A DNA stretch of 64,000 bases, from contig OX638293.1 in the NCBI GenBank assembly GCA_951812335.1, positions 186,001 to 250,000 of the forward strand, given 5' to 3'. The notes under the pieces were generated by a model. It was not told the DNA's origin. It did not search any database and was given only the letters and a program-made list of their open reading frames with translations. The translations under genes and the position numbers were made by a program. Origin of the DNA: Rhodothermales bacterium (GTDB taxonomy: Bacteria > Bacteroidota > Rhodothermia > Rhodothermales > VXPQ01). Numbering within the stretch: the first letter of the stretch is position 1; each line of letters opens with the position of its first letter. Positions 20,257 to 60,757 of the stretch are shown here, piece after piece.

Positions 20257-20353
20257 AAGGATACTCTGATCAAAACCGCTTCGCTCAGCGCTTCACGGAC
20301 GTGACGCGCCCTTCGGGAGGCTGCCAGAGATGCGCTGGCTGCGTCATTCCTCA
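20257..20353 (+). repeat. Three-arm repeat, partial copy A
   Basis: It begins AAGGATACTCTGATCAAAAC at 20257, follows the R-end of the family through a collapsed second arm (GCGCTTCACG gac GTGACGCGC), enters the first arm (GCGCTGGC ... GTCATTCCTCA) and then stops. The rest of the element is missing. It lies between convergent aroA and the MGMT-like gene, and the complement of its TCA at 20351-20353 is that gene's stop codon. Confidence 0.85.
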
Positions 20354-20695
20354 GTATGTATCCTTTGTTTCCTCGGACGGATCCCACAGATGCGCTTCCA
20401 GCACGACGCACCCGTTTTCGTCGAACGTCACCCCCTCGGCGCGCAGGCGTTCTTCCATGACATGCGGTCCTCCAAAACGCATTTTGCCGGTCAGCGCGCC
20501 AAACCGGTTGACCACGCGGTGACAAGGAAGCAGGGTACCCGCCGCCGCGCCCAGCGCCCAGCCGACCGTGCGAGCAGCGGAACGCGCACCGAGATATCCT
20601 GCGATATGTCCGTAGGTCGTAACTTTACCGCAAGGGATCCGGTCCACTACGGCCCAGACCCGTTCGAAGAAATCGTTGTCCCGGGAGGCGTTCAT
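20351..20695 (-). CDS. MGMT-family DNA alkyltransferase-like protein, 114 aa
   Basis: This is a single C-terminal-type domain of the O6-alkylguanine-DNA alkyltransferase family. Motifs: FFERVWAVVDRIPCGKVTTYGHIAGYLGA (helix-turn-helix and the conserved PxGKVxTYG) and the active-site loop LPCHRVV. Free-standing proteins of this size are often the alkyltransferase-like group that bind but do not repair because the Cys is replaced by Trp. Here the Cys is kept, so methyl transfer is possible (inference). The stop codon lies inside a three-arm repeat fragment (TACTGAGG, where other copies read TAATGAGG), so the original C-terminus may have been a little different. Confidence 0.88.
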   Translation of the reverse strand: MNASRDNDFFERVWAVVDRIPCGKVTTYGHIAGYLGARSAARTVGWALGAAAGTLLPCHRVVNRFGALTGKMRFGGPHVMEERLRAEGVTFDENGCVVLEAHLWDPSEETKDTY

Positions 20696-20725
20696 ACGCC
20701 GTATACCGTTCTCCCTCCCTTTTTT

Positions 20726-20992
20726 AAGGATACTCCGATCAAAACCGCTTCGCTCAGCACTTCACGTTCGCAAGTAAAGTAATGTCATGATTCCATCGTT
20801 GAAATCAGCGGGACACACTGATGTTTCGGGCATCGCGGAGGCGATGCGCCCTTCGGAAGGCTGCGAGGAGCACGCTGGCCGCGTCATTCCTCATTATGCG
20901 GGGCCTGCCACATTGCTTCGTCATGCCTTGCCAGCCCACCCATCGCAGCCTCTGAACTTCGTGGACTTAATCAGAGTATTTTAAGGATGCTC
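20726..20992 (+). mobile_element. Three-arm repeat, full copy B (R-end first)
   Basis: It starts AAGGATACTCCGATC and ends with the complement of the L-end (GGACTTAATCAGAGTATTTT). Internal arms are recognisable: GCCACATTG and CATTATGCGGGGC around the first arm, and the CATGATTCCATCGTTG loop segment of the second arm. It is directly abutted by copy C in the same orientation, so the two form a tandem pair between the MGMT-like gene and murB. No protein-coding gene is supported within it. Confidence 0.9.
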
Positions 20993-21241
20993 TGATCAAG
21001 TCCACTTCGATCAGCGCTTCACTTTCACGCGTAAAGAACGATATGCTTGCATCGTCGGAATCAGCGAAAAACACGGCGGATTCGGGTCGTCTCGGCCGTG
21101 AAGCGCCCTTCGGGAGGCAGACAAAGGCACGCTGGCTGTGTCATTCCTCATTATGTGGGGCCTACCACATTGCTTCGTCATTCCTTGCCAGCGCGCCCCT
21201 TTCAGCCTCTGAATCTTTGCGGACTTAATCAGAGCATCCTT
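20993..21241 (+). mobile_element. Three-arm repeat, full copy C, tandem with copy B
   Basis: Termini are AAGGATGCTCTGATCAAGTC and the complement of AAGGATGCTCTGATTAAGTC, so both ends carry GATGC where most copies have GATAC. The first arm pairs GGCACGCTGGC with GCCAGCGCGCC. The second arm pairs GCGCTTCAC with GTGAAGCGC. It ends two bases before an in-frame ATG of murB (21244), and thus forms the murB leader. Confidence 0.9.
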
Positions 21242-21276
21242 ATATGTTGTCGCATCCCGGCGCGCCCCGCAGAATT

Positions 21277-22317
21277 ATGACAAACGTACCTCACTTGCCG
21301 GATCCGGCGGCCTGTGCTGCACTGGAACATGCGCTGGGGGCGGAACGCCTTCTGCGGCAGGTCGAACTGGCCCCCTACACAACCTTCCGGATTGGCGGCG
21401 CGGCGGACCTGTTCTACGAGGCGCGCACCGTAGAGGAACTCGTTCGAGCCATCGCAACGGTCCGGGAATTCGGCGTTCCGTACTTCCTTCTCGGACGGGG
21501 AGCGAATATCCTGGTGAGCGACCGCGGCGTACGCGGACTCGTCATCTACAATACCGCGGACCGGATGGAGATAAACCCCGACACGCACCGGCTATGGGTG
21601 GAGTCCGGGGCGATCGTGTATCCGAACGTAATCGAAGCAGCCGTGGAGGCCGGTCTCTCCGGGCTGGAACACTATGTCGGCATTCCGTCCACCGTGGGAG
21701 GCGCGCTTTGGCAAAACCTGCACTTCCTGGCGCCGCCCCCCAAGCGGGAACGCACCATGTTCATCGAGGAAGTGCTGGAGGAAGCGGATATTCTGACCGA
21801 AGAAGGCGAGCGCCGCACGGTCGGCGTGGAGTATTTCGATTTCGGGTACGACTACTCGATCCTGCACGACCGCGAAGATATCGTGCTTTCGGCCACGTTC
21901 CGGCTGGAGCCGGGAGACCGGACGCGGATGAAAGAAATCATGGCGGCGAACCTCGAATGGCGCAGCGCCCGACATCCCCCGCTGGATACGGAGCCCAGCG
22001 TGGGGTCCATCTTCAAGAAAATAGAAGGGATCGGGGCGGGACGGCTCATCGACGAAGCCGGCCTCAAGGGAACGCGCATCGGGGGTATCGAAATCACGCA
22101 CCGGCACGCCAATATCATGGTCAACCGGGGCGGGGGCAGGGCCGCCGACGTGATCGCCCTGATCCGATACATACAGGAAGTGGTGGCGCGCGACACAGGC
22201 TATCTGCTCGAGACGGAAATTGCATTTATTGGCGAATTCGAGGATGTACCGGATGCGCTGCCGTATACCGCACCAGCCCATATAGAACACGCCGACGCTC
22301 CCCGGCCCCCGCTGTGA
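21277..22317 (+). CDS. murB: UDP-N-acetylmuramate dehydrogenase (UDP-N-acetylenolpyruvoylglucosamine reductase)
   Basis: MurB reduces the enolpyruvyl group of UDP-GlcNAc-enolpyruvate with NADPH and FAD in peptidoglycan precursor synthesis. Motifs: YTTFRIGGAADLFYEA (FAD-binding start), LGRGANILVSDRGVRGLVI, GLEHYVGIPSTVGGAL, PSVGSIFKKIEG with the catalytic Ser region, and LIDEAGLKGTRIGG with HANIMVNRG. The form lacks the long insertion of type I MurB. The start is ATG 21277 (MTNVPHLP) or ATG 21244, which lies right at the end of repeat copy C; 21277 is preferred as the longer start only adds repeat-flank sequence. The stop overlaps the ccmB start (TGATG), suggesting coupling. Confidence 0.92.
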   Translation: MTNVPHLPDPAACAALEHALGAERLLRQVELAPYTTFRIGGAADLFYEARTVEELVRAIATVREFGVPYFLLGRGANILVSDRGVRGLVIYNTADRMEINPDTHRLWVESGAIVYPNVIEAAVEAGLSGLEHYVGIPSTVGGALWQNLHFLAPPPKRERTMFIEEVLEEADILTEEGERRTVGVEYFDFGYDYSILHDREDIVLSATFRLEPGDRTRMKEIMAANLEWRSARHPPLDTEPSVGSIFKKIEGIGAGRLIDEAGLKGTRIGGIEITHRHANIMVNRGGGRAADVIALIRYIQEVVARDTGYLLETEIAFIGEFEDVPDALPYTAPAHIEHADAPRPPL

Positions 22318-23003
22318 TGAAACAACCGTTTAAAGCGTGGCTTGCCGGGGCATGGGCCGTTTTCGAGAAGGACCTGCGTCTCGAACTGCGAAGCCGCTAT
22401 GCGGTAGGCATGCTGCTCATGTTCGTGCCCGCCTCGATCCTGCTCATCCTGTTCGCTACGGGCCAGGAACCGCTTTCTCCCCGCATCCAGTCGGGACTCC
22501 TGTGGATCGTGATTCTTTTTGCGGCGTCCATCGGTCTCGGAAGATCGTTCGTGAGCGAAGAAGATCGCGGGACGGTGCTCCTCCTGCGGCTGCACACCCG
22601 GGCCAGCATGGTCTATGCGGGAAAACTGCTGTTCAATTTCTTCCTGATCCTTGTGCTGGAAGCCGTAGCTGTCTTTACCATGATCTTGCTCCTGAATATC
22701 GAGGTGGCGCATAGCGGCTTGCTCGCAAGTACGATCTTGCTCGGTTCACTGGGTCTCGCCGGGGCGACGACGCTCCTCGCTGCGCTGATCGCGCGGGCCG
22801 CAACGCGAGGGCCTCTGCTACCGGTATTGCTTTTTCCCCTGCTCGTGCCCTTGCTCATGTCGGTGGTGGCAGGCACGCGCCATGCTTTCGAAGGCGGCTT
22901 CGGATGGGGCGCCAGCGGCGAAGCCCTGACCACGCTGGCCGCATTCGCCGGGGTGGTGATTACCGCCGCCGTGCTGCTTTTCGATTTCGTCTGGAACGAT
23001 TAA
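22317..23003 (+). CDS. ccmB: Heme exporter protein CcmB, 228 aa
   Basis: CcmB is the membrane subunit of the CcmAB ABC complex of cytochrome c maturation system I, which releases holo-CcmE. About six hydrophobic helices follow an N-terminal FEKDLRLELRSRYAVG segment. IGLGRSFVSEEDRGTVLLLRL is the typical cytoplasmic loop of CcmB. The ATG overlaps the murB stop. The stop TAA (23001-23003) overlaps the first bases of repeat copy D. The ATPase partner ccmA is not in the window. Confidence 0.9.
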   Translation: MKQPFKAWLAGAWAVFEKDLRLELRSRYAVGMLLMFVPASILLILFATGQEPLSPRIQSGLLWIVILFAASIGLGRSFVSEEDRGTVLLLRLHTRASMVYAGKLLFNFFLILVLEAVAVFTMILLLNIEVAHSGLLASTILLGSLGLAGATTLLAALIARAATRGPLLPVLLFPLLVPLLMSVVAGTRHAFEGGFGWGASGEALTTLAAFAGVVITAAVLLFDFVWND

Positions 23004-23046
23004 GGATACTCTGATTAAGTCCGCAAAGCTCCTCTCAGCCTCCCAA
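23002..23046 (+). repeat. Three-arm repeat, partial copy D inside the ccm operon
   Basis: It begins AAGGATACTCTGATTAAGTC (L-end) at 23002 and is recognisable for about 45 bases, up to CTCAGCCTCC. The first base pair after GAT completes the ccmB stop TAA. The rest of the element is missing. It separates ccmB from ccmC, which start only 114 bases apart. Confidence 0.85.
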
Positions 23047-23116
23047 AGCGCGCGTCATTTGCGAAATCTGCGCCGTATCTTGTCGCCCGCCACCCATTCG
23101 CTTTGTCTTCCGCTTC

Positions 23117-23812: not shown

Positions 23813-24075
23813 CCATTCACGCTATTCAGGAAGCGGATACGACGTACGGCGCCACGCCGTACGATTCCGTATGGACTTCGCAGGAAGTCCCGGTGCAGCA
23901 ACCGGACGCGCTGGAGCGAACCATGCTGGCCCAGGACAAACTCTATGTGGTGCTGGCGGTGGTGCTCATCATCTGGATCGGGCTCGCGGCATTCGTATAC
24001 CGGACCGACCGCAAAATCGACCGGCTGGAACGGAAACTGGATGCACGCATTTCAGACGAAGACGCCTCGCCGTAG
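23809..24075 (+). CDS. ccmD: CcmD-like small membrane protein, 88 aa
   Basis: The ATG overlaps the ccmC stop (ATGA). The N-terminal half is polar, followed by a single membrane helix (KLYVVLAVVLIIWIGLAAFVYRTD) and a charged helix (RKIDRLERKLDAR). Size, topology and position between ccmC and ccmE fit CcmD, which in known systems helps release holo-CcmE from CcmABC. CcmD proteins are poorly conserved, so the call rests largely on context. Confidence 0.75.
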   Translation: MTIHAIQEADTTYGATPYDSVWTSQEVPVQQPDALERTMLAQDKLYVVLAVVLIIWIGLAAFVYRTDRKIDRLERKLDARISDEDASP

Positions 24076-24154
24076 CACGTAGCACATTGTTCATGTATAC
24101 GGACCACGCCCGTAGCCCCGCACACGCACCCTCTCGCTTCCGACAACCCCCGGC

Positions 24155-24544: not shown

Positions 24545-24636
24545 AAAACGCGGCTATCCGCCAGTACCCGGTAAGTTGTCTCTGGTAAAATCCTGCCGTG
24601 CGCCGCACCGTATGGTCAAGCACCGGCGCCTCCCGC

Positions 24637-26881: not shown

Positions 26882-27139
26882 AGGATGCTCTGATTAAGTC
26901 CGCAAAGACTCAGAGGCTGAAAGGGGCGCACTGGCAAGGAATGACGAAGCAATGTGGTAGGCCCCACATAATGAGGAATGACACAGCCAGCGCGTCTCTG
27001 TCTGCCTCTCGAAGGGCGCTTCACGGCCGAGACGACCCGAATCCGCCGTGTTTTTCGCTAATTTCAACGATGCAAAGATATCGTCCTTTACGCGTGAAAG
27101 TGAAGCGCTGATCGAAGTGGACTTGATCAGAGCATCCTT
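26882..27139 (-). mobile_element. Three-arm repeat, full copy E (L-end at rsmA)
   Basis: Plus-strand ends are AGGATGCTCTGATTAAGTCC and the complement of AAGGATGCTCTGATCAAGTC; both termini carry GATGC, as in copy C. The first arm surrounds ATGTGG-TAGGCC-CCACAT, and the second arm pairs GCGCTTCACG with a GTGAAGCGC segment. It fills the gap between the TPR gene stop (27161) and the rsmA ATG (26880). Confidence 0.9.
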
Positions 27140-34404: not shown

Positions 34405-34544
34405 TCTGCGCTCATCAACGCTCCGTCAAGTGGAAAGGACAGGGTGCGGCCGGGAATGCGCAGCGTATGCAAAACGTTACGACAGATGCCGGACAGACGC
34501 TCTTAACAAGCCTTCGACACAAAAGATCCCGGAGGGCGAATTTC

Positions 34545-34789
34545 AGGATACTCTGATCAAAACCGCTTCGCTCAGCGCTTCACGTTCGTGCGGATAAGAC
34601 ATCATGATTCCATCGTTGGAATTAGGGGAAGCACTGCGGATTTGGGACAGTGCGGACGTGACGGAGGCATAGAGGGGCACGCTGGCCGCGTCATTCCTCA
34701 TTGTGTGGGGCCTGCCACACTTCTTCGTCATTCCTTGCCAGCGCACCCCTCACAGTCTCTGAGATTTGCAGACGTAATCAGAGTATCCT
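34545..34789 (+). mobile_element. Three-arm repeat, full copy F (R-end first)
   Basis: Ends are AGGATACTCTGATCAAAACC and the complement of AGGATACTCTGATTACGTC. The arm-1 loop ATTGTGTGGGGCCTGCCACAC and the arm-2 loop CATGATTCCATCGTTGGAAT are seen. It lies upstream of the four-gene envelope operon, at the border to an AT-rich island. Confidence 0.9.
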
Positions 34790-34977
34790 AAAGGAGATTT
34801 GCGCGCAAAACGGGCCGATAAACCCAAAAAAGCAAATTATAATAATTGAAAGTGAAGTATTTCAAATACCTCTAAAAATGTAATGGCAAGGAATTTATTT
34901 CAAAATATTCCTTGATATTGTGCCTGGAAAACACGCAAAAAACCGGATGTACAACGATATGCAGTCGAAATGTTTAA
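34790..34977. other. AT-rich intergenic island with short inverted repeats
   Basis: This stretch is far more AT-rich than the genes around it. AAGGAAT (34888-34894) and ATTCCTT (34907-34913) form an inverted repeat, and GTATT-TCA-AATAC lies at about 34857-34869. A minus-to-plus reading of 34916-34990 gives a short coding-like stretch (RKKPDVQRYAVEMFKPSYL) in frame with ATG 34970. No complete gene is seen. Confidence 0.5.
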
Positions 34978-35445
34978 ACCGTCTTATTTACCCCCCCCCC
35001 CCGGAATTCACACAAATTTAATAATAAAATACTTGACAATGGCATCGTAGAAGAAGCTCGAAAAAACTTCCTCGAAACAGATGCCTCGCATGCGGAAAAG
35101 AACGACATTGTGGTGGCGCTCGGGTATATCCATGACAATCTGCTTTCGCCCTCTTTGTCCGTAATGAAAGTAGTTGAAAAATGCCGTATCCAGACCGATT
35201 GTTTCTACGGCCGATTCGCGGACGAAGTTACGCCGAACGGCGATGCGCGAAGAACGCCCGGAGAATACATAACATGGGCGCGCATCCAGGTAGCCCGGCG
35301 CATACTTGAACACGGCGCTTGCAATTTGACGGAACTGGCGTACGCGCTGGGATTCAATTCGTACCCGACTTTCTGGCGGGCGTGTCGTAAGCATCTCGGT
35401 TGCAAACCGGCGGAAGCGGCGAAAATGAATGGGAAGGCGGGTTGA
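34970..35445 (+). pseudogene. AraC-type HTH regulator frame, interrupted at a 12-C tract
   Basis: The C-terminal part is an AraC-family DNA-binding domain: two helix-turn-helix segments (SVMKVVEKCRIQTDCFYGRF, and LTELAYALGFNSYPTFWRACRKHLG) with PGEYITWARIQVARRILE between them, ending about 20 residues later. In one frame this is open from about 34978 with no ATG; a GTG at 35110 could start a 111-residue product. An ATG at 34970 reads into the C-tract (34991-35002) and then stops at 35048 in the present length. One extra C would join that ATG to the regulator frame. So it is either phase-variable, a decayed fragment, or a sequencing error in the homopolymer. Confidence 0.6.
34991..35002 (+). 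repeat. Poly-C tract of 12
   Basis: Twelve C residues in a row lie between TTTA and GGAATTC. It is placed seven codons after the only nearby ATG and before the AraC-type frame. Homopolymers of this length are prone to slipping both in cells and in sequencing. Confidence 0.9.
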
Positions 35446-35481
35446 CGGATCGTTTTCGATTGTCGCCTTGAGATACCCTTA

Positions 35482-36690
35482 TTACCGAGCAAAACGGATG
35501 TAAGCATTGTGGCGGGAGTCGCCAATGCTACCGGACAAAGAATTACTGTCCGGATCGAATCGGAGGTCCATATCCCGGAGGACGGTATCGGTGCTGTGAA
35601 ACAGTCGAATATCGCTGCCCTGGAACGAAAATCCGCCATCGAGCGCTATCGTTGTCGGGGCGCCGTCCGAAGAGGGTAGCCGCATGCGTCCGACTACCGT
35701 AAAATCGGGACGCAGCGTAATCGCGACCGACCCGCCTTCGGCAAGGTAATTCACGGGTTCGTTGTTCTCTCTACCCTCGAAACCAACGGCCGTGTAGGCG
35801 CCGGAAATCATGCTTCTTAACCGGCGGGAGGACAGCGCCCCATGGGCATCCAGGGAATAGCCTGCAAACACCCCCTGCCCGCCTCGAATGTTGGATTGAA
35901 TCCTGACCGGCTCGACGAAGGGGTTGTGGTCGGCGTCCTGCTGAAGCAGCCGGGTGCGACGATACAGGTAGTAGGCTTCGCTGACGGTGCGAATATAAAT
36001 GGTCGCATCTCCGTAGATGCTTTCGGTCTCGAGCCTGAAGGTGAAGAGCTTACCGTCAAAGGGATCGTCACGGATCAGGGCCCGACGAACGTACGGAGTC
36101 GTTAGTTCGGGCTCGAACAAGTCGCCCGGATCCAGGCTTCTGATCTGGTCCTCCAATTCTGCATTGAGCAGGGTAAAGGGCACTTCGTAACCTTGCTTGT
36201 TGTGGAGGACGGAGAGTTCGTAGAAATTGCGAACCTCGCCATCGTCCCGGATTTCGATGTCGATGCGTCTGGTCGCCTGATCGGCGTCCGAACGCGCCCG
36301 AACCCGCACCGCCATCACGACAACGGGTTCGGGCAGTCGGTCGACCGCCTCGACGGTCCGGAACCCGTCGGCAGCGGCATGCAGGGTATAGGTGACGCCG
36401 AACCGGGGGGAAGGACTATTGGCATGATAAAAGCCGCCGCCCTTGTGGCTTAAAGCAACGAAAGACCCGTCGTGGCCTCGAATCGTCACGGTGGCGTCCT
36501 CTACGACAGCAGGAAAGGCCGCGACTTCCTGCGTGCCGACGGTGCGCTGGACGACTACGCGCCAGGGTTCATCCGGCGTAAACAGGCTCGTTACGACCAA
36601 CTGGGCAGGACCCGTCTCGATATCTGCGTCCACGACGGTTTCGCAACCGGCAGTGGCCGCCAGCAGAGCGGCGATGACTACGTTTCGCAT
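35482..36690 (-). CDS. DUF4249-family lipoprotein, 402 aa
   Basis: The signal ends ATAGC (lipobox TAGC after MRNVVIAALLAA). The following ETVVDADIETGPAQLVVTSLFTPDEPWRV is the typical DUF4249 opening, and the rest (VEDATVTIRG, GVTYTLHAAADGF, GEVRNFYELSVLH, SEAYYLYRRT) matches the known pattern. DUF4249 genes usually sit next to a TonB receptor, as here (17 bp downstream of its stop). The likely role is a surface partner of the receptor, possibly in uptake of an iron or peptide ligand, but this is not established. Confidence 0.85.
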   Translation of the reverse strand: MRNVVIAALLAATAGCETVVDADIETGPAQLVVTSLFTPDEPWRVVVQRTVGTQEVAAFPAVVEDATVTIRGHDGSFVALSHKGGGFYHANSPSPRFGVTYTLHAAADGFRTVEAVDRLPEPVVVMAVRVRARSDADQATRRIDIEIRDDGEVRNFYELSVLHNKQGYEVPFTLLNAELEDQIRSLDPGDLFEPELTTPYVRRALIRDDPFDGKLFTFRLETESIYGDATIYIRTVSEAYYLYRRTRLLQQDADHNPFVEPVRIQSNIRGGQGVFAGYSLDAHGALSSRRLRSMISGAYTAVGFEGRENNEPVNYLAEGGSVAITLRPDFTVVGRMRLPSSDGAPTTIALDGGFSFQGSDIRLFHSTDTVLRDMDLRFDPDSNSLSGSIGDSRHNAYIRFAR

Positions 36691-36707
36691 AGCGTTTCTC
36701 GAAGGGG

Positions 36708-39062
36708 CTAAAACGTAAAACGGTAACTGATCGAGGGAATAATCGGAAACAGACTGACCTGTCTGACGGTCCGGACCTGGTCGAAAAAACCGACGTGGGG
36801 ATGGAAGGACGAGCTATCCTTCACAAACAGGAAAAACGGATTGCGGCGATTGTAGAGGTTATAGATGCTGAACGTCAACTGATTTTTTCCGTCCCGGCGG
36901 GGCGTGTGCACGCTTATGTCTAACCGGTGATAGGCCGCCATGCGATACCCGTTGCGCCGGTCGTAGACGTTGACGATCTCCCCGTTTTCGCTGTATTGCG
37001 CCACCGGCAGCGTGACGGCATTGCCCGTGCCGTACACCCACGTTGCCGAAACCGTCCTGCGTTTCAGTTTGCGCATTATCGCTATGGAGAGGTCGTGCCG
37101 ACGGTCGTACCGGTACGGAAATGCGCGGCCCTGATTCAGTTCTGCGATGCGCCGCTTCGTCCACGAAAGCGTATACCCGATCCATCCCCTCGTTCGCCCC
37201 TTTTTCTTCCGGACGAACACCTCTGCGCCGTAAGACCAGCCCCGACCCGCGACAATCCGGTCTTCCCAATCTCGATTCAGCCCCACAAAATTGCTTCCCT
37301 CTGCGAACTCGGTAACGCCATCCATCGATTTGTAATACCCTTCGACACTGACGTCGTAAGCGTTTGGACCGAGCGTACGTGCAAGGCCGACCGCGCCTTG
37401 CCACGATCTTTGCGGCCGGACGCGGGCCGTACTGGGCAGCCAAAGGTCGGTTGGCAAACCGATGCCGCTGTTGGAAAGCAGGTGGATGTACTGTCGCATC
37501 GACGCAAACGACGCCTTGAGCGCCCACTGCCCGGGCAACAGGAACGAGGTCGCCAGCCTCGGCTGCACAGACGCGTACACCCGATCATCGACGTGAAATC
37601 CCGAAATGTGTACTCCGGCATTGATCTTGAGCCAGCGCGTAAGGTCGATAGCGTCCTCGGCATAGGCGAACCATTCGACGGCGGGCTTGTCAACCCTCTG
37701 GGCGATGGTGGTATCGGGAACGGTCTCCAGGGAGTTCTTCTCCCGGTGCAATTGGGCGCCGGGAGTAAACCGGTGGTGCGTAATGACGCCTCCGTAGCGG
37801 ACGTAATGGGCCCGGTGCGGCAGATAGTCTATGTCGATCTTCGCACTCCAATCCCGGATACCGGAAGAAAAGCGCGATTCGAAGCTTTCCCGAACGCTTT
37901 GGTCGTTGATGAGCAGTTTTGTGTCGTATCGATCCCGGGCCCCGTACCGGAAACGGCTGAAAAGCAGCATGGTGTTCGCGAACATCCTGGGGGTCAGGAC
38001 CCGATTCCAGCGCAGCGTGGCGGTGACGTTGCGCCAGCCCAAATGCGTTTTGTCGGAATAGTCGGTTTCCTTATTGTCAAAAAATGCATATAACCGGTCG
38101 TTTCCGGCGTAGAGACTGACGAAGACCCGATCTTTCTCGGAAAGAGCAACGTTCGATTTTGCGTTGACGTCGTAGAAATAATAGCCTATGACGGAATTGT
38201 CCTCGCCGTTTCTGAGCGCCTGGAAAGGGCGTGTGATCAGGTCGAGGTAGGTGCGCCGCGTCGAGACGATAAACGAACTCTTCTCCTTTCGAATCGGCCC
38301 TTCGACAGTCAGGCTCGACGCCACCAACCCGACGGCGCCGCGTCCCTCGAATTCTTTCCGGTTGCCTTCGCTCATGCGCAAATCGAGCACCGAGGAAAGG
38401 CGCCCGCCATACCGGGCCGGAAAGCCGCCCTTGAACAACTCGGCTTTGTTGAGCGCATCGGTGTTGAACGTGGACAGGAATCCAAAAAGGTGACTGACAT
38501 TGTAGACCGGAGCGTCGTCAAGGAGAACCAGGGTCTGGTCGGGGCTGCCGCCGCGTACGTACAGCCCCGAGCTGCCCTCCGAACCGGATTGGACGCCGGG
38601 CATTAACTGGAGCGTTTTGAGCACATCGGCTTCGCCCAGCAACGCCGGAAGCGTCTGCACATCGGCCATCGAAACGTGCACTGTACTCATTTGGACGCGT
38701 TCTTCAAGCCGTTCTTCCAGACGCGAGGCAACCACGTTCAGGGAGTCCAGCCCTACGGTCGAGGGGGTCAGTTCGATAGCCTGAATACGCTCCAGGGGAG
38801 CCTGGAGCACGAGTGTCTCGGGCCGATAGCCCAGATAACTGACCTGGATGAAGGCGGTGTCTACCGGCAGGGTCAGGCTGAAAAAGCCATACGCATTCGT
38901 GATCGTACCTGCACGCTGGCGGGTTTCGTAGACATGCGCCCCGATAAGGGCTTCGCCCGTCTGCACGTCGGTGACGTAGCCGCGAACCGTTAGCGGTTGC
39001 GCCAGGACATCGCCGACACAGAAAAAGAAGAGGCTCCAGGTAATCCAGACTGCGCTGCGCAT
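36708..39062 (-). CDS. TonB-dependent receptor with carboxypeptidase-regulatory-like domain, 784 aa
   Basis: The start is ATG 39062 (MRSAVWITWSLFFFCVGDVLAQ, a signal peptide). An earlier TTG in frame adds seven residues and is unlikely. Residues about 25-100 (VRGYVTDVQTGEALIGAHVYE) are the regulatory-like domain. The plug (about 110-230) has LYVRGGSPDQTLVLLDDAPVYNVSHLFGF and FPARYGGRLSSVLDLRM. The barrel ends SISYRFTF with a terminal Phe. It lacks a clear TonB-box or N-terminal signalling extension. Paired with the DUF4249 lipoprotein. Confidence 0.92.
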   Translation of the reverse strand: MRSAVWITWSLFFFCVGDVLAQPLTVRGYVTDVQTGEALIGAHVYETRQRAGTITNAYGFFSLTLPVDTAFIQVSYLGYRPETLVLQAPLERIQAIELTPSTVGLDSLNVVASRLEERLEERVQMSTVHVSMADVQTLPALLGEADVLKTLQLMPGVQSGSEGSSGLYVRGGSPDQTLVLLDDAPVYNVSHLFGFLSTFNTDALNKAELFKGGFPARYGGRLSSVLDLRMSEGNRKEFEGRGAVGLVASSLTVEGPIRKEKSSFIVSTRRTYLDLITRPFQALRNGEDNSVIGYYFYDVNAKSNVALSEKDRVFVSLYAGNDRLYAFFDNKETDYSDKTHLGWRNVTATLRWNRVLTPRMFANTMLLFSRFRYGARDRYDTKLLINDQSVRESFESRFSSGIRDWSAKIDIDYLPHRAHYVRYGGVITHHRFTPGAQLHREKNSLETVPDTTIAQRVDKPAVEWFAYAEDAIDLTRWLKINAGVHISGFHVDDRVYASVQPRLATSFLLPGQWALKASFASMRQYIHLLSNSGIGLPTDLWLPSTARVRPQRSWQGAVGLARTLGPNAYDVSVEGYYKSMDGVTEFAEGSNFVGLNRDWEDRIVAGRGWSYGAEVFVRKKKGRTRGWIGYTLSWTKRRIAELNQGRAFPYRYDRRHDLSIAIMRKLKRRTVSATWVYGTGNAVTLPVAQYSENGEIVNVYDRRNGYRMAAYHRLDISVHTPRRDGKNQLTFSIYNLYNRRNPFFLFVKDSSSFHPHVGFFDQVRTVRQVSLFPIIPSISYRFTF

Positions 39063-39395
39063 GAGTAACTCATGATCCGACAAAAATGCTTGCAGTATCT
39101 GGTCGGCCTCTGTCTCTATACCCTCTTGTTTTGGATTATGGAAGGGTCATGCAGCCATCCGCTTGCTGCGCCGGAGGCGCCGCGCTTCGATCATGGTCGA
39201 TCTGAATGGCTCTCCGTATACGCGCGATGCGGATATTGGTGCCTTTCGAGATACGCAAGGCTGATCGAAGCATCGTGGCGTGGTTATTACGGCGTGGCAT
39301 GAATACACTTTTTTGTCATCCCAGCGTTCAGGCAGAGCCGACTTCGCACGAATCTTGTGCAAGAAACCGGCCCTGCCTGAGACTAACACCACGAC
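39063..39395. other. 333-bp intergenic region, no supported gene
   Basis: It lies upstream of the TonB receptor and downstream of the orphan lipoprotein, both on the minus strand, so it should hold a promoter; none is clear. A small hairpin GCGCC-GGA-GGCGC is at 39168-39180. Short frames on either strand show no motif. Confidence 0.5.
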
Positions 39396-40568
39396 TCAAC
39401 GGACATACACATTTTCGAATTTCCATCCTCCCGTGTAGTAATAGATCAACCAATAAGTACCAAATTCGGATGACCAACTTTCATTACTGAAATAATCGTG
39501 GGTTCCCGCACCATGATTGCTGGTAGTTCCCCTATTACGCTTGCGACTTGTAGATGCGGTGACTTCACTGCAAAAAGTGGATGAGAACCAGCGGTAAGGC
39601 GGATTATATTTATAGTACAGAGGCCCCGGATTGAGTGCGCCAATGCACTCGCTGCTACTCGAGCCGTTCCCACCATTTACTGAGACCTTCATACGCACAC
39701 GACTAAGCAATGATGACGGTAGCGAGTAATGCCCAAAGCCATACCAAGTACTACCAATCTGGGCTTGTGCCTGGGTTCCTCCCTTTGCCCTCCTTCTGAA
39801 TGTACGCCCGGTTGATTGATTCCACAGCAAAAAGCGCACAGGATAGCATGTCTTGTCAAAGAATTGGGCATCGTTATCCGGCAGACAAATGGTAGTATTA
39901 CCATAATAACGGGTATCGCGGTTTTGTGTTTTAGCCGCTGTCCCTTGGAGGATTTCTTGTGCTTTCTGCTGCACAAAGGGGTTTTTGAACGTCAGCGTGG
40001 CCAATTCCTCTGGCCTATGCTGAAGACCATAGAGTTGCGACAGCTCTCGTTCTACAGCCTTGCCATCCTCGCCCCAGTATTCTATTAACTCTCTACTCTG
40101 GTTCGGTGCACCAGTGTCTTGCTGATAAGCGCCGATCTCGGTTACTGTGTATTCATGGTCTCCGATGATGACTTTGCCGTCGGTATCCAACACGCTGATC
40201 TCAGCCGGATTGTTGGCGTGTACAAGCCGTCTGTACAGATCTGCATTAACGGTTAATGCAGACTGCTCCGTAAGTTTGTCAAGAAACGCATAATATGTAT
40301 CGAAGCTTTCAAACGTACGTCGCTCTTGTTTGAAACCGGGATTTAACGAGACAGAGACGACATGCTCGGTACCATCCTCACTTTCTCCATAACTATACTG
40401 GACCGTCTCAAGTGCCCCTCCTTCGGGTGCCTGACTGGCTTTAGTGTCGATATTAGGGTTAGTATCCGTAACTGAGTCGCACGCTTGCAAACCAAGAAGA
40501 ACGACGAAGACGAAAGTTAGGATAATCCATCTTTGATTCAACGAATTGGTGGGGTAGGATATATTCAT
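39396..40568 (-). CDS. Lipoprotein of unknown function, 390 aa
   Basis: The start is ATG 40568 (MNISYPTNSLNQRW); an upstream in-frame extension has no signal character. A signal helix (IILTFVFVVLLGLQAC) ends in a lipobox GLQAC. The mature part has no motif that I recognise. The middle is charged (LTEQSALTVNADLYRRLV, RELSQLYGLQHRPEEL), and the C-terminal 140 residues are rich in Ser, Gly, Tyr and Trp with four Cys, suggesting a disulfide-bonded beta domain. Codons are more AT-rich than in most neighbouring genes, which may point to recent acquisition (inference). Confidence 0.75.
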   Translation of the reverse strand: MNISYPTNSLNQRWIILTFVFVVLLGLQACDSVTDTNPNIDTKASQAPEGGALETVQYSYGESEDGTEHVVSVSLNPGFKQERRTFESFDTYYAFLDKLTEQSALTVNADLYRRLVHANNPAEISVLDTDGKVIIGDHEYTVTEIGAYQQDTGAPNQSRELIEYWGEDGKAVERELSQLYGLQHRPEELATLTFKNPFVQQKAQEILQGTAAKTQNRDTRYYGNTTICLPDNDAQFFDKTCYPVRFLLWNQSTGRTFRRRAKGGTQAQAQIGSTWYGFGHYSLPSSLLSRVRMKVSVNGGNGSSSSECIGALNPGPLYYKYNPPYRWFSSTFCSEVTASTSRKRNRGTTSNHGAGTHDYFSNESWSSEFGTYWLIYYYTGGWKFENVYVR

Positions 40569-41174
40569 GACGGTGGTTGTAATTTGGTTCTGGAAACAGA
40601 GTAAACCCAGAAGAATTTTAGCGGCCCGCACACCCCAATACATTTCATATTCTTCCAATAATGCATCTTGCAGACAATCCTGTAATCGACGCAACCGGGG
40701 TCGATCTGCCAACCCGGGACGCGCCCACGTACTTCTGCCCCCCAGCGCCTTCAGCGGCCATCTCCCACAGTACGCCGTGCAGCACCTGCCGCCTGAAAAA
40801 CGGATATATCCGCAAAAGCCGGATTGCTGGCGAAACGACGTGATGCGCTACCTAACCTCGGCCCGGGAATCGGCGGCAAACCCCGATTTCTCCGTTCCGA
40901 TCGACCTGCCGGGAGGCCCCGAAGAACGCCTTGCGGCGTTCCGGCGGCAGGTACTCGCCTACGGACAATTGCTTACCCACTGGCCCGCAATCGTCGAAGC
41001 CGCACGCGCTATGAAAGACAAAGGAGACATGCTGGCCCGGCCAATTCAGGCATACGCAGCCTGAACGTACGGCATCTTTTCTGTAACCGCCCCGGAATCA
41101 TAAGTTGTTTAGCGCCAAATTCTCATCGTTCCAGCGCCAATTTGCTGTCGTTGTACACTGACAACATAGAACCG
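40569..41174. other. 606-bp gap with two small overlapping frames, uncertain genes
   Basis: Two plus-strand frames are coupled by TGATG at 40841-40845: 40661-40843 (60 aa, MHLADNPVIDATG) and 40843-41064 (73 aa, MRYLTSARESAANPDFSVP). The second continues, in its own frame, a longer open frame that runs back to 40567. GC content and codon use look like the host, but neither has an SD or known domain. They could be remnants of one gene with a frameshift. Confidence 0.4.
40843..41064 (+). CDS. Hypothetical small protein, 73 aa (uncertain)
   Basis: The frame MRYLTSARESAANPDFSVPIDL is followed by a likely helix with RLAAFRRQVLAYGQLL and WPAIVEAARAMKDKGD, and ends IQAYAA. The composition is protein-like, with alternating charged and hydrophobic helix residues. 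No family is recognised. The start ATG overlaps the stop of a preceding 60-codon frame. It may be the tail of a longer, now broken gene. Confidence 0.4.
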   Translation: MRYLTSARESAANPDFSVPIDLPGGPEERLAAFRRQVLAYGQLLTHWPAIVEAARAMKDKGDMLARPIQAYAA

Positions 41175-44769: not shown

Positions 44770-45027
44770 AAGGATACTCTGATTAAATCCGCAAAGATTC
44801 AGAGGCTGAAAGGGGTGCGCTGGCAAGGAATGACGAAGCAATGTGGCAGGCCCCACATAATGAGGAATGACACGGCCAACGTGCCCCTCTCTGCCTCCCG
44901 AAAGGCGCTTCACGTTTGCAAGTACAGGATATCATGATTTTATCATCGGAATCAGCGGGAAATATGCGAATTCGGGGCGTTGCGAACGTGAAGCGCTGAA
45001 CGAAGTGGTTTTGATCAGAGTATCCTT
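44770..45027 (-). mobile_element. Three-arm repeat, full copy G (L-end at rsmD)
   Basis: Ends are AAGGATACTCTGATTAAATC and the complement of AAGGATACTCTGATCAAAAC. Arm 1 pairs AGGGGTGCGCTGGC (44811-44824) with GCCAACGTGCCCCT (44875-44888) around the ATGTGG/CCACAT loop stem. Arm 2 pairs GGCGCTTCACGTTTGCA (44904-44920) with TGCGAACGTGAAGCGCT (44981-44997). The right end finishes exactly at the stop codon of the next minus-strand gene (45027). Confidence 0.92.
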
Positions 45028-49593: not shown

Positions 49594-49849
49594 GGGATAC
49601 TCCGATTAAGTCCGCAAAGCCCGGAGGCTGCGAGAGGTGCGTTGGCAAGGAATGACGAAGCAGTGTGGCAGGCCCCACACAATGAGGAATGACGCGGCCA
49701 GCGTGCCCCTCGAAACCTCCCGAAGGGCGCGTCACGTCTGCGACGCCCCGAATCCGCAGTGCCTCCCCTGATTCCGACGATGGAATCATGATGTCCCGTA
49801 CTTGCGAACGTGACGCGCCGGACGAAGCGGTTTCGATCAGAGTATTCCA
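49592..49849 (-). mobile_element. Three-arm repeat, full copy H at the pdxB start
   Basis: Plus-strand ends are AAGGGATACTCCGATTAAGT and a complement of GGAATACTCTGATCGAAAC. Arm 1 has GTGTGG-CAGGCC-CCACAC, and arm 2 contains GATTCC-GACGAT-GGAATC inside GGCGCGTCACG/CGTGACGCGCC. It fills the gap between pdxB and the outer-membrane protein gene, and its left end overlaps the pdxB start codon. Confidence 0.9.
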
Positions 49850-52774: not shown

Positions 52775-54267
52775 AACGACTTCACGGACTCATTCTGCGC
52801 ATGCTCCCGGGACGCGTTCTCGGATGGTTGGGAACGCTCATGTTCCTGCTGGTGATGCAGTTTCTGATCAAGTACCTGCCCGATCTGGCGGGCAAGGGGC
52901 TTCCTCTTGGGGTGCTGCTTGAACTGATCGCTTACAACCTGGCTTACATGGTGGTCCTCGCCGTTCCGATGTCGCTTCTTATCGGCGCCATGATGACGTT
53001 CGGACGTATCGCCGAATCCCGGGCCTGGGTTGTGATCAAGGCATCCGGCGTCTCGCCTATCCGGCTTATCTGGCCCACGCTCCTGATTGGAGCATTTGTC
53101 GCCACCGGCATGACGTACTTCAACAACCGCGTGTTGCCGGAGGCGAACTTCCGCGCCCGCAACCTGTGGTACGACATACGCCGGAAGCGTCCGGATTTCG
53201 AGTTGCGTTCCGGCATGTTCTACGAGGGAGTACGAGGCTACAGCATCCTCGTGCAGCATGTGGCCGCCGGCTCCGGAGAGCTGAAGGATATTCTCATCTA
53301 CGACTACACGGACAATGCCCAGGCCGTGATCAAGGCGCGCGAGGGGCGCTTGCTCCCCCTGCAGGATCGACCGGAGCTGGCGCTTACCCTTTTCGATGGC
53401 GAAATACACCGCATGCCGGAGGGACAACAGTTCTTCCGAGCCGAAGAGCGCTACGAGCGGCTCACCTTCGACAAATACCGCATGACGCTGGACGCTTCCG
53501 AATTCGCCTTCGAGCGGTCGGCGGAAGGCCGGACAAATCGTTCGGACCGCACCATGTCCACCCGGGACATGATCGGCTTTGTCGATTCCCTTCGGCAAAG
53601 CATCGACTCGTCTCTTGTCCGCCTTGCCGGATATTTCGCGCCGGGGAGCTTTGGAAACAATGCGCCCGAGAACTTTGGAGACAATGCGCCGGAGAACTTT
53701 GAAAACAATGCACCGGCGAACTTTGAAAACAATGCGCCGGAGAACAGGATGCCAAAACCCTTCCTTGCAACGCTCCCGGCAGAAGAAACCGGGATAGCCG
53801 CATCGTCCGGACGCGCTCCGCCAGGGGACGAAGAGATCCTTACCAAAGCCATAGAGAACGCCCGGAATATGCGTATGATTATTGACGATACGCAGCGCGG
53901 CATCGCTTGGGAATTGCAGCGAGCCGACCGGTTTCTGGTGGAGATCCACAAGAAGTACTCCATCGCCATCGCGTGTCTTATTTTCATGCTCATAGGCGCC
54001 CCGCTGGGGCTGAGCACCCGGCGCGGCGGTCTGACTTCGGCAGGCATTCCGGCAGCGGGTATTTTCCTCTTTTACTGGGTGACGCTCGTACAGGGAGAAA
54101 AGCTGGCGGACCGCGGCTTTCTCGAACCTTGGATCGGTATGTGGATCGCCAACCTTGTGATGATCGCAGCAGGGCTATGGCTGATGGTCTACGTAACGCT
54201 GGATCTGCGCGCCACAACGCCTCTCCGCACCCGGCTCCTGCGCCTGTTGCAAAAACATACGCCATAA
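52771..54267 (+). CDS. LptF/LptG-family lipopolysaccharide export permease, 498 aa
   Basis: YjgP/YjgQ-type permease of the LPS export ABC system, at the inner membrane. It has three N-terminal helices (FLLVMQFLIKYLP, AYMVVLAVPMSLLIGAMMTFGRIAE), a large periplasmic beta-jellyroll (about 105-430) and three C-terminal helices (AIACLIFMLIGAPLGLSTRRGG). It is over 130 residues longer than E. coli LptF or LptG; the extra part holds an 8-residue repeat array (about 293-325) and a polar linker. Only one such permease is seen here, and Bacteroidetes often have a separate second one elsewhere, so I cannot tell F from G. The start overlaps the MBL stop by ATGA. Confidence 0.88.
   Translation: MKRLHGLILRMLPGRVLGWLGTLMFLLVMQFLIKYLPDLAGKGLPLGVLLELIAYNLAYMVVLAVPMSLLIGAMMTFGRIAESRAWVVIKASGVSPIRLIWPTLLIGAFVATGMTYFNNRVLPEANFRARNLWYDIRRKRPDFELRSGMFYEGVRGYSILVQHVAAGSGELKDILIYDYTDNAQAVIKAREGRLLPLQDRPELALTLFDGEIHRMPEGQQFFRAEERYERLTFDKYRMTLDASEFAFERSAEGRTNRSDRTMSTRDMIGFVDSLRQSIDSSLVRLAGYFAPGSFGNNAPENFGDNAPENFENNAPANFENNAPENRMPKPFLATLPAEETGIAASSGRAPPGDEEILTKAIENARNMRMIIDDTQRGIAWELQRADRFLVEIHKKYSIAIACLIFMLIGAPLGLSTRRGGLTSAGIPAAGIFLFYWVTLVQGEKLADRGFLEPWIGMWIANLVMIAAGLWLMVYVTLDLRATTPLRTRLLRLLQKHTP
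53648..53746 (+). repeat. Four 24-bp tandem repeats in the LptF/LptG gene
   Basis: The 24-bp unit aacaatgcgccggagaactt-like is repeated four times with few changes and codes for N-N-A-P-E-N-F-E-type octapeptides. It lies in the periplasmic insert of the permease. The period is a multiple of three, so changes in copy number keep the frame. Confidence 0.9.
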
Positions 54268-54989: not shown

Positions 54990-55053
54990 GGAGGTGTAGT
55001 ATGTACCCGAAGCACCTCTACCCGGCCTGTCCCGGAGCTGCATTTTGATGCCG

Positions 55054-55490: not shown

Positions 55491-55491
55491 A

Positions 55492-55821: not shown

Positions 55822-55864
55822 CGTTTCACGCCGTCAGGTCTTTGAGCATCAACCGTCTGGCTCA

Positions 55865-56734: not shown

Positions 56735-56738
56735 CTCC

Positions 56739-57872: not shown

Positions 57873-59056
57873 AGCGACACCCCCATCCGCCTCAAGTGTC
57901 CCTCGACCTTTGCGCCGAATGCATCCACTTCCTTCTCCAACTCCGGCAGCGTCCGGGCGTAGCGCTCCTCCAGTTCTTTCACGCGCCCGGCAAGTCGTTG
58001 GGTCAGCCGTTCCATCTCGCTCCCGATAGCGGTTCGGATATCGGCGAACCATTTGTCCTCCACCACCAGCGACTTGATCTCGGTTTCGGTAAGCGAGGCA
58101 TAGCGGGCCAGCACCTGCTCGTTCAGCGCGGTCTGATGGTCTTTAACGGCTTTCCCCGCCTTCGATTCGGCGTTGATCAGAGCCAGACAGCGCATGAGCA
58201 CTTCCCGTTCCTCATTGCTCTCCGGCTCGCCCCGCACGGCCTTGAGTCGTGCCGCCACCGCAGTTTTAGTGACTTTGCCCTTGTCGTTCACCGCCTCTGC
58301 CAGCAGGCCCTCCTCCCCTGTGTGTTCTTCGACAAATTCCTCCAGTTCGCGGGCCGCGGACTCCTGCCTCGCCTCGATTCGAGCCTCGCTGTAACCCAAG
58401 CGGCCGTTGCCCGTAAACAATGTCTGACGCAGCGAGGGAAAGATATTCCAGTATTCTTCGAGCGCATCGATATCGCGGTCGGGAATGCCACCGTTCAGAT
58501 GAGCGTCCAGATCGTGCATATCCTCTGGCTCGCTGGAGTCGATATAGCGCGGGATGTTGAGGTTGTAATCGTTGGCCGGGTCGGCGATCTCCGACACCGG
58601 AACCATACGAGAATACCGGGGCAATTCAATCTGCTTGTTGAATACGTCCACAATCTTGTGAATGTCCTGCGCGCGCAGGCGGTTCTTGTTGCCGTCCTTG
58701 AGAAAGCCCTTGCTTGCGTCGATCATGAAGATGCCGGCGCGGGCATGGGCATGCTCCTTGTCGACAATCAGGATGCAAGCAGGGATTCCGGTACCGTAAA
58801 ACAGGTTGGCGGGCAGGCCAATGATACCCTTTATAAAGCCGTGCAGGATCAGATTCTTGCGAATGTCGGCCTCCTTGTTCCCGCGAAATAATACGCCGTG
58901 AGGCAGAATGATCGCGCCCTTGCCGTTGTTCTTGAGCGATGCGATGAGATGCAGAAGGAAAGCATAGTCCTTGTACTGCGAAGCGTCCATGCCGCCCCGC
59001 AACTCGTCGCAACTTTGCCAGAGCGAGGAATAAAGTTGAGACTTCTTCAGAGCCAT
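57869..59056 (-). pseudogene. hsdM: hsdM with large in-frame deletion of the methylase core, 395 aa
   Basis: The first 31 residues (MALKKSQLYSSLWQSCDELRGGMDASQYKDY) are the true start of a type I methylase. At residue about 31 the sequence jumps to AFLLHLIASLKNNGKGAIILPHGVLFRG, which normally lies about 250 residues later, after the catalytic NPPF/NPPY motif. The SAM-binding motif and the NPPY region are therefore gone; normal HsdM is over 600 residues. The frame is kept, and the join occurs at DYA, which is found at both normal positions (YKDY and GDYAFLLH), suggesting deletion between short matches. The C-terminal helical part is intact. No hsdR is in the window. Confidence 0.8.
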
Positions 59057-59080
59057 GCGCGCGTACTCAGGATGCTCCCC

Positions 59081-60229
59081 CTACTGCTGATACCGATGCC
59101 GCCGCAACGCCTCCGGCTCCCGTGTTCTGGTTACGGTCTCGCCACAGTCTCCGCATCGAAACACGATCTCCTTGGGCGGGCCCGTAGCGCCAGCCAGAAA
59201 GTATACGGCGCTGAACATGCCGTAACGAGCATGGGGCGAGACGCGCGGATGATCCCTGCCATGCCCGCAGGAACAGGCAGCGGCGGGCGCCGGGGAGAAC
59301 TCCGGAGACAGGAGCGGTTCTGCTTCGGTAGCCTCTTTTTCCAGCGCCTGCGCATGACGGTAGTGTTCCGCATCTGCAGGCCGTTCCACGATGTGCCTGT
59401 CTACCGATAGCCTACCGGATCCCCACAGCACGAGCAGGATCAGCAGGAACAGAACGAGCGCCGAGAACTCCAGCGACTGGGTGGGAGCCAGAAGCCCGCT
59501 CTGCAAGTGAACGACGAAGACGGCCCCGATGAGGATCGGCAACTGGACCATCGCAGCTACGCGCGTGAAAAGGCCGACGGCAATCATGACTCCCCCTACG
59601 AGGTGAGATAGCGCCACATAGTGGATCAGCACCACGGAGGTAAGCCACGCCGACGACGAGGAGCCGATCAGATCGAGGAATGCGGAAGAGTTCGAGATGA
59701 ACAGGACTCCCCGTGCGAAGAGTCCGATACCGAGATAGATTCTCAGCAATTCGAACGCAATGTTGCCGAGGCGCTCGAGCCGGTCGCCAATCGAACGGAA
59801 CGGGATGAAACGCCGCGTACTCCATGATGCATCGACGGACCACCGGCCGGATCCATGCAGAAAAATCGGGATCAGCAGGAACAGTACAAGCGCCGAGAAC
59901 TCGAACGACTGTCCGGCGGTGAATATACCGCCCCTGAGGTGGATCAGGAAGACGGCGCCTGCAAGAATCGGTATCTGCAACAGCACGGCCAGACGCGTAA
60001 ACAGACCGATGGCGATCATGGCCCCTCCCAGCAGGTGTGCGCCCACCACGATATACATGACACTGGACGACGCGAGCATGGATGTCTCGCTTCCCGCTAC
60101 GAGCGCGGCGAAGGCATCCGGACGGATCAAAAAAAACAGGCCGCGGACAAAGAGCCCGACCCCGAGATATATGCGAAGCAGGTCGAAGGCGAGATCGCGG
60201 TTCGACTCGATGCGATGCGACAGAGTCAT
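59081..60229 (-). CDS. Tandem DoxX-like membrane protein with C-terminal zinc-ribbon-like tail, 382 aa
   Basis: Two copies of a four-helix DoxX-like domain lie in one chain (about 10-140 and 155-285): LLRIYLGVGLFVRGLFFL and LLRIYLGIGLFARGVLFI, each followed by HLLGGAMIAIGLFTRLA / HLVGGVMIAVGLFTRVA. A cytoplasmic-looking tail has CSCGHGRDH and FRCGDCGETV, a CxxC pair suggestive of a zinc ribbon. Most DoxX proteins have a single domain and no such tail. Function of the family is not settled. The gene ends 24 bases upstream of the hsdM start, the same direction. Confidence 0.78.
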   Translation of the reverse strand: MTLSHRIESNRDLAFDLLRIYLGVGLFVRGLFFLIRPDAFAALVAGSETSMLASSSVMYIVVGAHLLGGAMIAIGLFTRLAVLLQIPILAGAVFLIHLRGGIFTAGQSFEFSALVLFLLIPIFLHGSGRWSVDASWSTRRFIPFRSIGDRLERLGNIAFELLRIYLGIGLFARGVLFISNSSAFLDLIGSSSSAWLTSVVLIHYVALSHLVGGVMIAVGLFTRVAAMVQLPILIGAVFVVHLQSGLLAPTQSLEFSALVLFLLILLVLWGSGRLSVDRHIVERPADAEHYRHAQALEKEATEAEPLLSPEFSPAPAAACSCGHGRDHPRVSPHARYGMFSAVYFLAGATGPPKEIVFRCGDCGETVTRTREPEALRRHRYQQ

Positions 60230-60244
60230 GGACGTACGTATGAT

Positions 60245-60559
60245 CTATTTCTGATAGTTCTGGTTTGTGGAGCGTAACCGTGCTTTGTATTTCCGGAGCC
60301 GACGACGCAGCACCTTCACGCATTCGTCAAGCGCTTCCTCGTGGGTGGCGCCATCGTTCGCAGTCGCGAGTGTCCGATGGTACACATGCACAATGACTTC
60401 AGCCGATTTGATCTTGTCAGGGTGGCCATTTTCCGAGAATACGATGCGCGCTTCTGTGATGCCGTCGTACACCCGTTCGAGTTTCGCCAGCCGGGCTTCG
60501 GCATATTTCCTGAGAGTCGAAGGAGCATCGAAATGACGGGCCGTAATCTGTGTTTGCAT
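60245..60559 (-). CDS. hpf: Ribosome hibernation promoting factor (short HPF/RaiA family), 104 aa
   Basis: HPF binds the 30S subunit and inactivates ribosomes in slow growth. The start is ATG 60559 with GAGG six-plus bases before it; an earlier GTG overlaps that SD. The beta-alpha-beta-beta-beta-alpha order is visible: MQTQITARHFDAPSTLRKYAEARLAKLERVYDGI, ARIVFSE, AEVIVHVYHRTLATAN, and EALDECVKVLRRRLRKYKARLRS. There is no C-terminal dimerisation domain, so this is the short form. Confidence 0.9.
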   Translation of the reverse strand: MQTQITARHFDAPSTLRKYAEARLAKLERVYDGITEARIVFSENGHPDKIKSAEVIVHVYHRTLATANDGATHEEALDECVKVLRRRLRKYKARLRSTNQNYQK

Positions 60560-60690
60560 AGGATACACCTCTTTACGTCGAACAACCTTACGATACAGCG
60601 CAGACGCGCACCCTTCGTATTACGGAATCGGCGCGAAATTATCAACGGGTACCGCGACAAAACGGAAAATTCCTGCCGATCGTGACGGTT

Positions 60691-60757
60691 AACGATACTC
60701 TGATTAAGTCCGCAAAGCGCAGGGGCTGAGAGGGATGGTCTCGATCAGAGTATCATT
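60691..60757 (-). repeat. Three-arm repeat, minimal copy I
   Basis: Only 67 bases remain: CGATACTCTGATTAAGTCCG at one end, GGGGCTGAGAGGGA in the middle, and the complement of GATACTCTGATCGAGAC at the other. Both terminal repeats are kept but the two internal arms are gone, as in an internal deletion derivative. It sits between hpf and ybeY, and the ybeY stop TAA (60756-60758) lies at its border. Confidence 0.85.

Follow-up and report, generated by a model that had tools for sequence, protein, structure and literature searches.

Miniature inverted-repeat transposable elements (MITEs) are usually seen as dead weight framed by a pair of inverted repeats. Correia elements, BOX, RUP, SPRITE, ERIC and Chunjie are folded or repeated intergenic elements thought to be spread by transposases acting in trans. 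ISAba12 is an insertion sequence (IS) that we take to be a member of the IS5 family. It is the identified parent of MITEAba12, and IS-derived MITEs with a known parent are on record (PMC6382973, in the sections cited here). The bcr1–bcr18 repeats of the Bacillus cereus group are described, in the cited sections, as group-restricted interspersed elements of 100–400 bp, of which bcr1–bcr3 are MITE-like and bcr10 and bcr18 have a conserved secondary structure, with 84/165 and 62/155 repeats found in mRNA in two strains (PMC6542083, PMC3446304). For QMITE2, a MITE of Coxiella burnetii, a very stably folded transcript is predicted (cited sections of PMC10969869). Here we analyse a family of three-armed repeats in a 64,000-bp stretch (the window; bases 186001–250000) of a 2,686,407-base single-contig Rhodothermales genome (G000), where an initial annotation had listed nine copies of a possibly undescribed element.

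Our results indicate that the repeats are very probably a MITE family belonging to an IS5-type insertion sequence, in which the strand that reads arm 1 first has been kept foldable, with a putative role as RNA. The element is presumably non-autonomous and moved in trans, and it is apparently orphaned in the window's genome, where the sequence points to a transposase relic only.

A repeat family of one genus

All nine listed copies were found in the window, and they belong to a family far larger than the window itself. The terminal 15-mer GGATACTCTGATYAA had 403 matches in G000 at ≤1 mismatch, as expected of a many-copy MITE, and its reversed control had none; in five comparison genomes of the same genus (G001–G005) it had 122, 125, 112, 348 and 163 matches, the sister species being G004 (G001 and G005 correspond to the JAJECT and JANQSQ records, labels that are inferred). 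In 34 genomes from other families of the order there were 0 to 3 matches each. The exact 14-mer AAGGATACTCTGAT occurred 110 times in the G000 genome (reversed control, 0), and 15 matches at ≤2 mismatches fell in the window compared with 0.24 expected. One of these (53284) lies outside any listed copy.

Searches with larger queries gave the same distribution. A full-copy query found relatives in 6/40 genomes of the order, namely all six of the genus and none of the other 34, and an arm-1 covariance model, run with stricter filters, matched the same six among 244 genomes of the class. The terminal pattern hit at least 74 stretches in a public genome set, all listed matches coming from 'Rhodothermales bacterium' records. 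Draft contigs G002:C3, C6, C16 and C45 and G001:C2 begin a few bases from a copy's arm 1, as is expected if the repeat breaks assemblies.

Rfam returned no match at gathering level in the window and none up to E 5 around copy G, leading us to reject a known Rfam RNA, and no description of the family turned up in the literature searched. The view that the element is undescribed therefore holds against Rfam and that literature, ISfinder and Dfam being outside the comparison.

A strand-specific three-arm fold

For structural analysis, 100 spans were chosen by both ends (≤2 mismatches in 11), and an arm-1 probe, at ≤7 edits in 25, matched 99 of them. The alignment holds 90 rows from six genomes and leaves out five alternative spans of copies as well as L009, L038, L090, L108, L169 and the unmatched L091 span; L009 is copy G, for which the window copy was used instead. 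The consensus structure has 51 pairs, and 98.4% of cells are paired across these 90 full copies. Two-sided changes were seen in 18/51 pairs compared with 7.4 in shuffles, none of 500 being as high, and with 2 to 6 in slid controls; these are covarying helices of the kind expected of a structured non-coding RNA.

Because relatedness of the copies can inflate covariation counts, we added a wobble test on the copy tree. Changes away from Watson–Crick pairing led 106 times to G-U and 34 times to A-C, over a nearly symmetric background in unpaired columns (C>T 155, G>A 145, A>G 119 and T>C 92). The excess of G-U over A-C was present in the ends (34/12), arm 1 (63/18) and arm 2 (9/4), on internal (29/3) and terminal branches (77/31), and on a tree built without the paired columns (33/4 internal, 81/31 terminal). 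In a double-stranded DNA fold, G-T and A-C ought to fare equally, being complements of each other. From the tolerance of G-U, and the much lower tolerance of A-C, we infer that the arm-1-first strand acts as RNA produced from the element.

RNA folding also favours the plus strand in 78/90 copies, by a mean of 9.6 kcal/mol, and copy G is computed to fold into the three-way junction proposed in the initial annotation (RNA z −7.8, with 0/200 shuffles as stable; DNA z −4.6). Statistically, the three-arm fold is strand-specific, the arm-1-first strand having changed as if constrained to the three-way junction.

Two nearly invariant runs lie between the two stems of arm 1 and are readable as a duplex of stacked tandem G.A pairs, probably sheared, between Watson–Crick pairs. 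Read antiparallel, its successive positions are G.A in 82, A.G in 87, A-U in 88, U-A in 90, G.A in 88, A.G in 87, C-G in 89, G.A in 90, A.G in 89, A-U in 90 and G.A in 90 of the 90 copies. The major base had a mean frequency of 0.990 in this module, compared with 0.937 for the ends, 0.907 for the outer stem of arm 1 and 0.767 for the loop of arm 2; for the 19 copies from the four other genomes the values were 0.991, 0.951, 0.961 and 0.824, respectively. The probe used to match spans overlaps the 3' half of the module, and the 5' half, which lies outside it, is equally conserved.

Insertion at TTAA-like sites

The element proper is GGATACTCTGAT...ATCAGAGTATCC (GGATAC...GTATCC), is about 254 bp at full length and carries no transposase gene; its ends pair in 98.7% of helix 1 cells, giving the short, gene-less form with terminal inverted repeats that is typical of MITEs. 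Its limits follow from the register of flank identity. Positions −5 to −2 and +2 to +5 are identical in 29/109 elements, compared with a mean of 9.7 and a maximum of 18 in shuffles. Pairs −6/+1 and −1/+6 show no excess, yet −1 is G in 105/109 and +1 is C in 103/109, which places the outer G and C within the element, gives a duplication of 4 bp with consensus TTAA and rejects a 6-bp target duplication. The terminal inverted repeats reported initially are present, although the leading 'AA' assigned to them belongs to the duplicated TTAA-like target.

Empty orthologous sites document mobility directly. In the clean pair formed by G000 53658 and its G004 orthologue, CCCAGTACTATGG(element)CTATGGTCAATT faces an empty CCCAGTACTATGGTCAATT; an empty-site comparison showing CTATGG was counted as insertion evidence. 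Altogether, 28 between-genome comparisons show an empty site, 12 of them with the exact overlap for a 4-bp duplication plus two end bases and the others with overlaps of −5, −7, −8, −9, −12 or 0. The DNA examined comprised 267 kb from G000 and 838 kb from G004, chosen around copies. Relative to G004, 17 of 61 G000 elements have an empty site, 11 an occupied site and 33 no orthologue in the DNA compared (shared site 642153 was dropped from this count by a length filter). Of the copies in the window, E, H and I are missing from the corresponding places in G004, and A, D and G are common to both species, A and D as relics.

Mechanical pairing of ends in the same DNA gave 61 elements in G000 and 72 in G004, of which 49 and 40, respectively, measure 230–275 bp; the procedure cut copy B short. 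Arm 1 follows the left end in 99/100 full-size spans, and the remaining one was not placeable. Shorter forms of 35, about 61 and 80–190 bp look like internal deletions of the full element, and the 35-bp form is as expected if a deletion joined a TCAG(AG) direct repeat close to the left end to its partner at the right end. Two neighbouring copies recur about 1.5 kb away in inverted order (G000 563529–563988 and 565495–565954).

A decayed IS5-type parent

PF01609 had ten matches in four of the six genomes of the genus. Three, all in the sister species (L124, L128 and L132), bear the same ends as the element; at L132 both ends flank a transposase with an internal deletion, and a fourth G004 transposase fragment has the left end. 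The ends are therefore common to an autonomous element through decayed G004 copies only. Their C-terminal piece matches DDE_Tnp_1 (PF01609, E 1e-22) and the IS5-family model NF033581 (E 5e-40, 137.6 bits, 2.4 bits under the cut-off of 140), and the N-terminal piece matches NF033581 (E 2e-12). Among 114 genomes of the order, matches of E 1e-30 or better came from G004 and two genomes of another family (G029 and G049). The first of these two has a 328-aa open reading frame (ORF) with 72% identity to the C-terminal piece and 336 bits against NF033581 (cut-off 140), and the transposase copies of the second contain internal stops. Both have related, not identical, ends beside their transposases (loose pattern), those of G049 being GGATAGTCTGATTAA and GGAAGGTCTGATCAA, with CTAA on both sides of one element. 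The parent is accordingly typed by PF01609, NF033581 and the G029 relative as a DDE transposase of IS5 type.

A 4-bp YTAR duplication is a mark of the IS5 group, and the TTAA consensus, the 4-bp excess and CTAA in G049 agree with it. The initial annotation had stated that the window holds no transposase; within G000, a PF01609 search of the whole genome gave one match, outside the window, this being the single family searched rather than a scan of every window gene. Next to a degenerate end, identified visually, lies a 29-residue match to the C-terminal piece (E 3e-4). The other G000 gene of IS5 type (636280) is matched by another model, NF033580, and its 3.4-kb locus showed no element end at ≤2 mismatches. 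At L135 (G001:C10:13343), a transposase fragment adjoins an apparent piece of MITE arm 1.

We envisage that an IS5-type DDE transposase would bind both ends and move the element in trans, inserting it at TTAA-like sites with a 4-bp duplication, and that its gene may since have decayed in G000. Selection for a role at the RNA level, either in persistence of the element or in use by the host, would keep the strand foldable. Insertion at TTAA-like sites, most likely in trans by an IS5-type transposase, is well supported, and selection for a putative RNA-level role is supported statistically.

Slow change of copies shared by two species

Pairing of sites between G000 and G004 gave twelve at which each species has a copy. 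Seven (404822, 642153, 684014, 742490, 762674, 1688585 and 2140768) have copies that are 98–100% identical within diverged flanks. At 2400620 the copies are identical, but so nearly are the flanks (99%). The remaining sites are 738281, which is flipped (168/186), 84423 (64/69), 2189927, which holds another subfamily (194/249), and 230773, with an inverted loop and a nested copy. The copy at G000 738281 and G004 69220 is in opposite orientation in the two species and seems to have flipped in place. Outside the twelve are relics A and D, the place of copies B and C, and G004 575381, whose counterpart is 161 bp of unclear sequence.

Differences between the species in the seven full copies with diverged flanks number 14/1748 sites (0.8%), compared with 294/2756 in 200 bp of flank on each side, or 211/2559 (8.2%) without the badly aligning right flank of 642153; the seven were selected after the result was known. 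As a control, 7.6% of 2947 other aligned 250-bp windows (overlapping) reach 98% identity, with a median of 0.912. The arm-2 loop, which is variable in the family, is conserved like the rest in the five shared pairs inspected, so family-wide constraint does not explain the slow change. Two of the shared copies appear to be neutral. The approximately 57 bp visible of the copy at the 742490 site in a third genome are another variant. Independent insertion at 742490 is unlikely, the closest paralogue being 88% identical in G000 and 98% in G004. Selection on retained copies or element-limited conversion may account for the slow change. Judged on these alignments, the strand-specific fold and the slow change of shared copies are features beyond those of an ordinary MITE.

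Copies and other features of the window

The initial annotation had the nine places right, except that C starts at 20983 instead of 20993 and F starts at 34544. Its count of six full copies also stands if nearly full ones are included (B, C, E, F, G and H); the other three are a deletion form and two truncated relics (Table 1). All lie between genes, as judged from ORF lists alone.

Table 1. Element copies in the window and the arms of the reference copy
Feature	Position	Strand	Description
Copy A	20259..20363	-	Relic: right end and piece of arm 1; shorter relic at same place in G004
Copy B	20728..20980	-	Full-length; directly adjoins C
Copy C	20985..21239	-	Full-length
Copy D	23004..23050	+	Left-end relic, no right end, 3' limit uncertain; common to G004, 17 bp shorter there
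Copy E	26883..27137	+	Full-length; absent from orthologous G004 place
Copy F	34546..34788	-	Full-length; at edge of 6.6-kb stretch unmatched in compared G004 stretch
Copy G	44772..45025	+	Full-length; young-subfamily reference copy; common to G004
Arm 1 of copy G	44803..44896 (approximate)	+	Covarying stems and near-invariant tandem-G.A module
Arm 2 of copy G	44904..44997 (approximate)	+	Stem GGCGCTTCACG / CGTGAAGCGC; variable, invertible loop
Copy H	49595..49847	+	Full-length; empty site in G004
Copy I	60693..60755	+	61-bp internal-deletion form; empty site in G004, TTAA duplicated

The place of B and C holds one single 117-bp element in G004. The G004 orthologue of copy G has its arm-2 loop inverted and a second element nested in arm 2; between these orthologues (window 44770–45027 and L090), it is the window's loop orientation that the young subfamily has. 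The unmatched stretch at copy F spans window 34533–41174. Elsewhere, a 2379-aa ORF at 6094–13233, with 234/237-bp and 72-bp repeats and poor collinearity with G004, may encode a repetitive surface protein, and a 24-bp tandem repeat lies within an ORF at 53638–53757.

Discussion

The initial annotation had offered a non-autonomous mobile element or a structured RNA, and this looks more like an 'and'. Mobility is borne out by empty sites with a 4-bp duplication, the nested copy in G004 and the IS5-type remnants with the same ends, and structure by controlled covariation and strand-asymmetric wobble. A lack of both empty sites and covariation had been named as the outcome that would count against the element; both were found.

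Several observations weigh against a MITE with a constrained RNA strand. Neighbours 58.117, 59.116 and 72.101 of the module misfit the G.A pattern, and among the 19 copies from the four other genomes the arm-1 outer stem (0.961) and arm-2 stems (0.970) are nearly as conserved as the module (0.991). No perfect 4-bp duplication is seen in 80/109 flank pairs, one site has different subfamilies in the two species and thus no simple history, and an adjacent element in the flank may have made some empty-site joins incorrect (for example, G000 563736 and 565496). The six genomes of the genus (four of them drafts of at least 50 contigs) yielded no intact transposase bearing these ends, and a pattern search found no end beside the 29-residue match in G000. 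Copies lie sense (26), antisense (32), divergent (24) or convergent (16) to neighbouring ORFs (98 copies, crude ORF calls); a clear orientation relative to genes was rejected, and the lack of bias gives no support for a cis-acting RNA in host transcripts.

We consider it unlikely that the repeat is an ordinary MITE whose fold is a by-product, with compensatory changes arising from hairpin-templated (quasipalindrome) correction between DNA arms. The arm-2 loop inversion in copy G relative to its orthologue does show that arms recombine, and MITE transcripts form stable stem-loops according to the cited sections of a review (PMC10969869). However, correction predicts no G-U preference, against the 106/34 seen (29/3 on internal branches) over a near-symmetric background, and the G.A module is conserved though it is not Watson–Crick. 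The asymmetry rejects such correction as the sole source of covariation. The strand-specific fold and small palindromic units would also suit a single-stranded DNA element moved by an HUH transposase (REP/RAYT or IS200/IS605 type). HUH elements are not known to create a target duplication; the 4-bp duplication here and the DDE transposase remnants with the same ends leave that reading barely tenable and led us to reject an HUH/REP origin, a RAYT gene not having been searched for. Passive spread of a host-domesticated intergenic RNA by duplication and recombination, without transposition, would match the low divergence of the seven shared copies relative to their flanks (14/1748 and 211/2559), but as the sole explanation it is highly improbable given the empty sites with 4-bp duplications, the nested insertion and the ends common to IS5 copies. 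A bolder proposal than the constrained MITE would make the element a mobile vehicle for a functional folded RNA: the arm-1-first strand would be expressed, its tandem-G.A module would bind a protein or RNA, and the host would have adopted some of the copies, accounting for the roughly tenfold slower change, relative to the flanks, of those kept since the two species diverged; this is possible, although we hold it doubtful.

On the reading as an IS5-type MITE with a foldable strand, the 90 full copies from six genomes form a natural alignment in which mobility and structural constraint can be considered separately. The G-U/A-C asymmetry is a sequence-only test, applicable to other MITEs, of whether a fold matters in single-stranded form. 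The family is also a young, abundant MITE in an uncultured, conceivably sponge-dwelling lineage, in genomes where only decayed matching transposases were found.

Among known systems, Correia, BOX, RUP, SPRITE, ERIC and Chunjie are alike in their folded or repeated intergenic nature, a likeness of description rather than of sequence. MITEAba12, as described in the cited sections (PMC6382973), is likewise short, has no transposase gene, shares its ends with a DDE-encoding autonomous element and has a target duplication; it differs in its 9-bp duplications and co-resident parent, the family here having 4-bp duplications at TTAA-like sites and decayed parent copies only. QMITE2, in the sections cited above, has direct repeats of 7–9 bp, in contrast to the 4-bp duplication here, and those sections describe no covariation test (PMC10969869). 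The bcr repeats, so far as the cited descriptions and not sequences were compared, are similarly group-restricted and MITE-like or structured, whereas the family described here has IS5-type ends and a strand-specific structural signal within one element.

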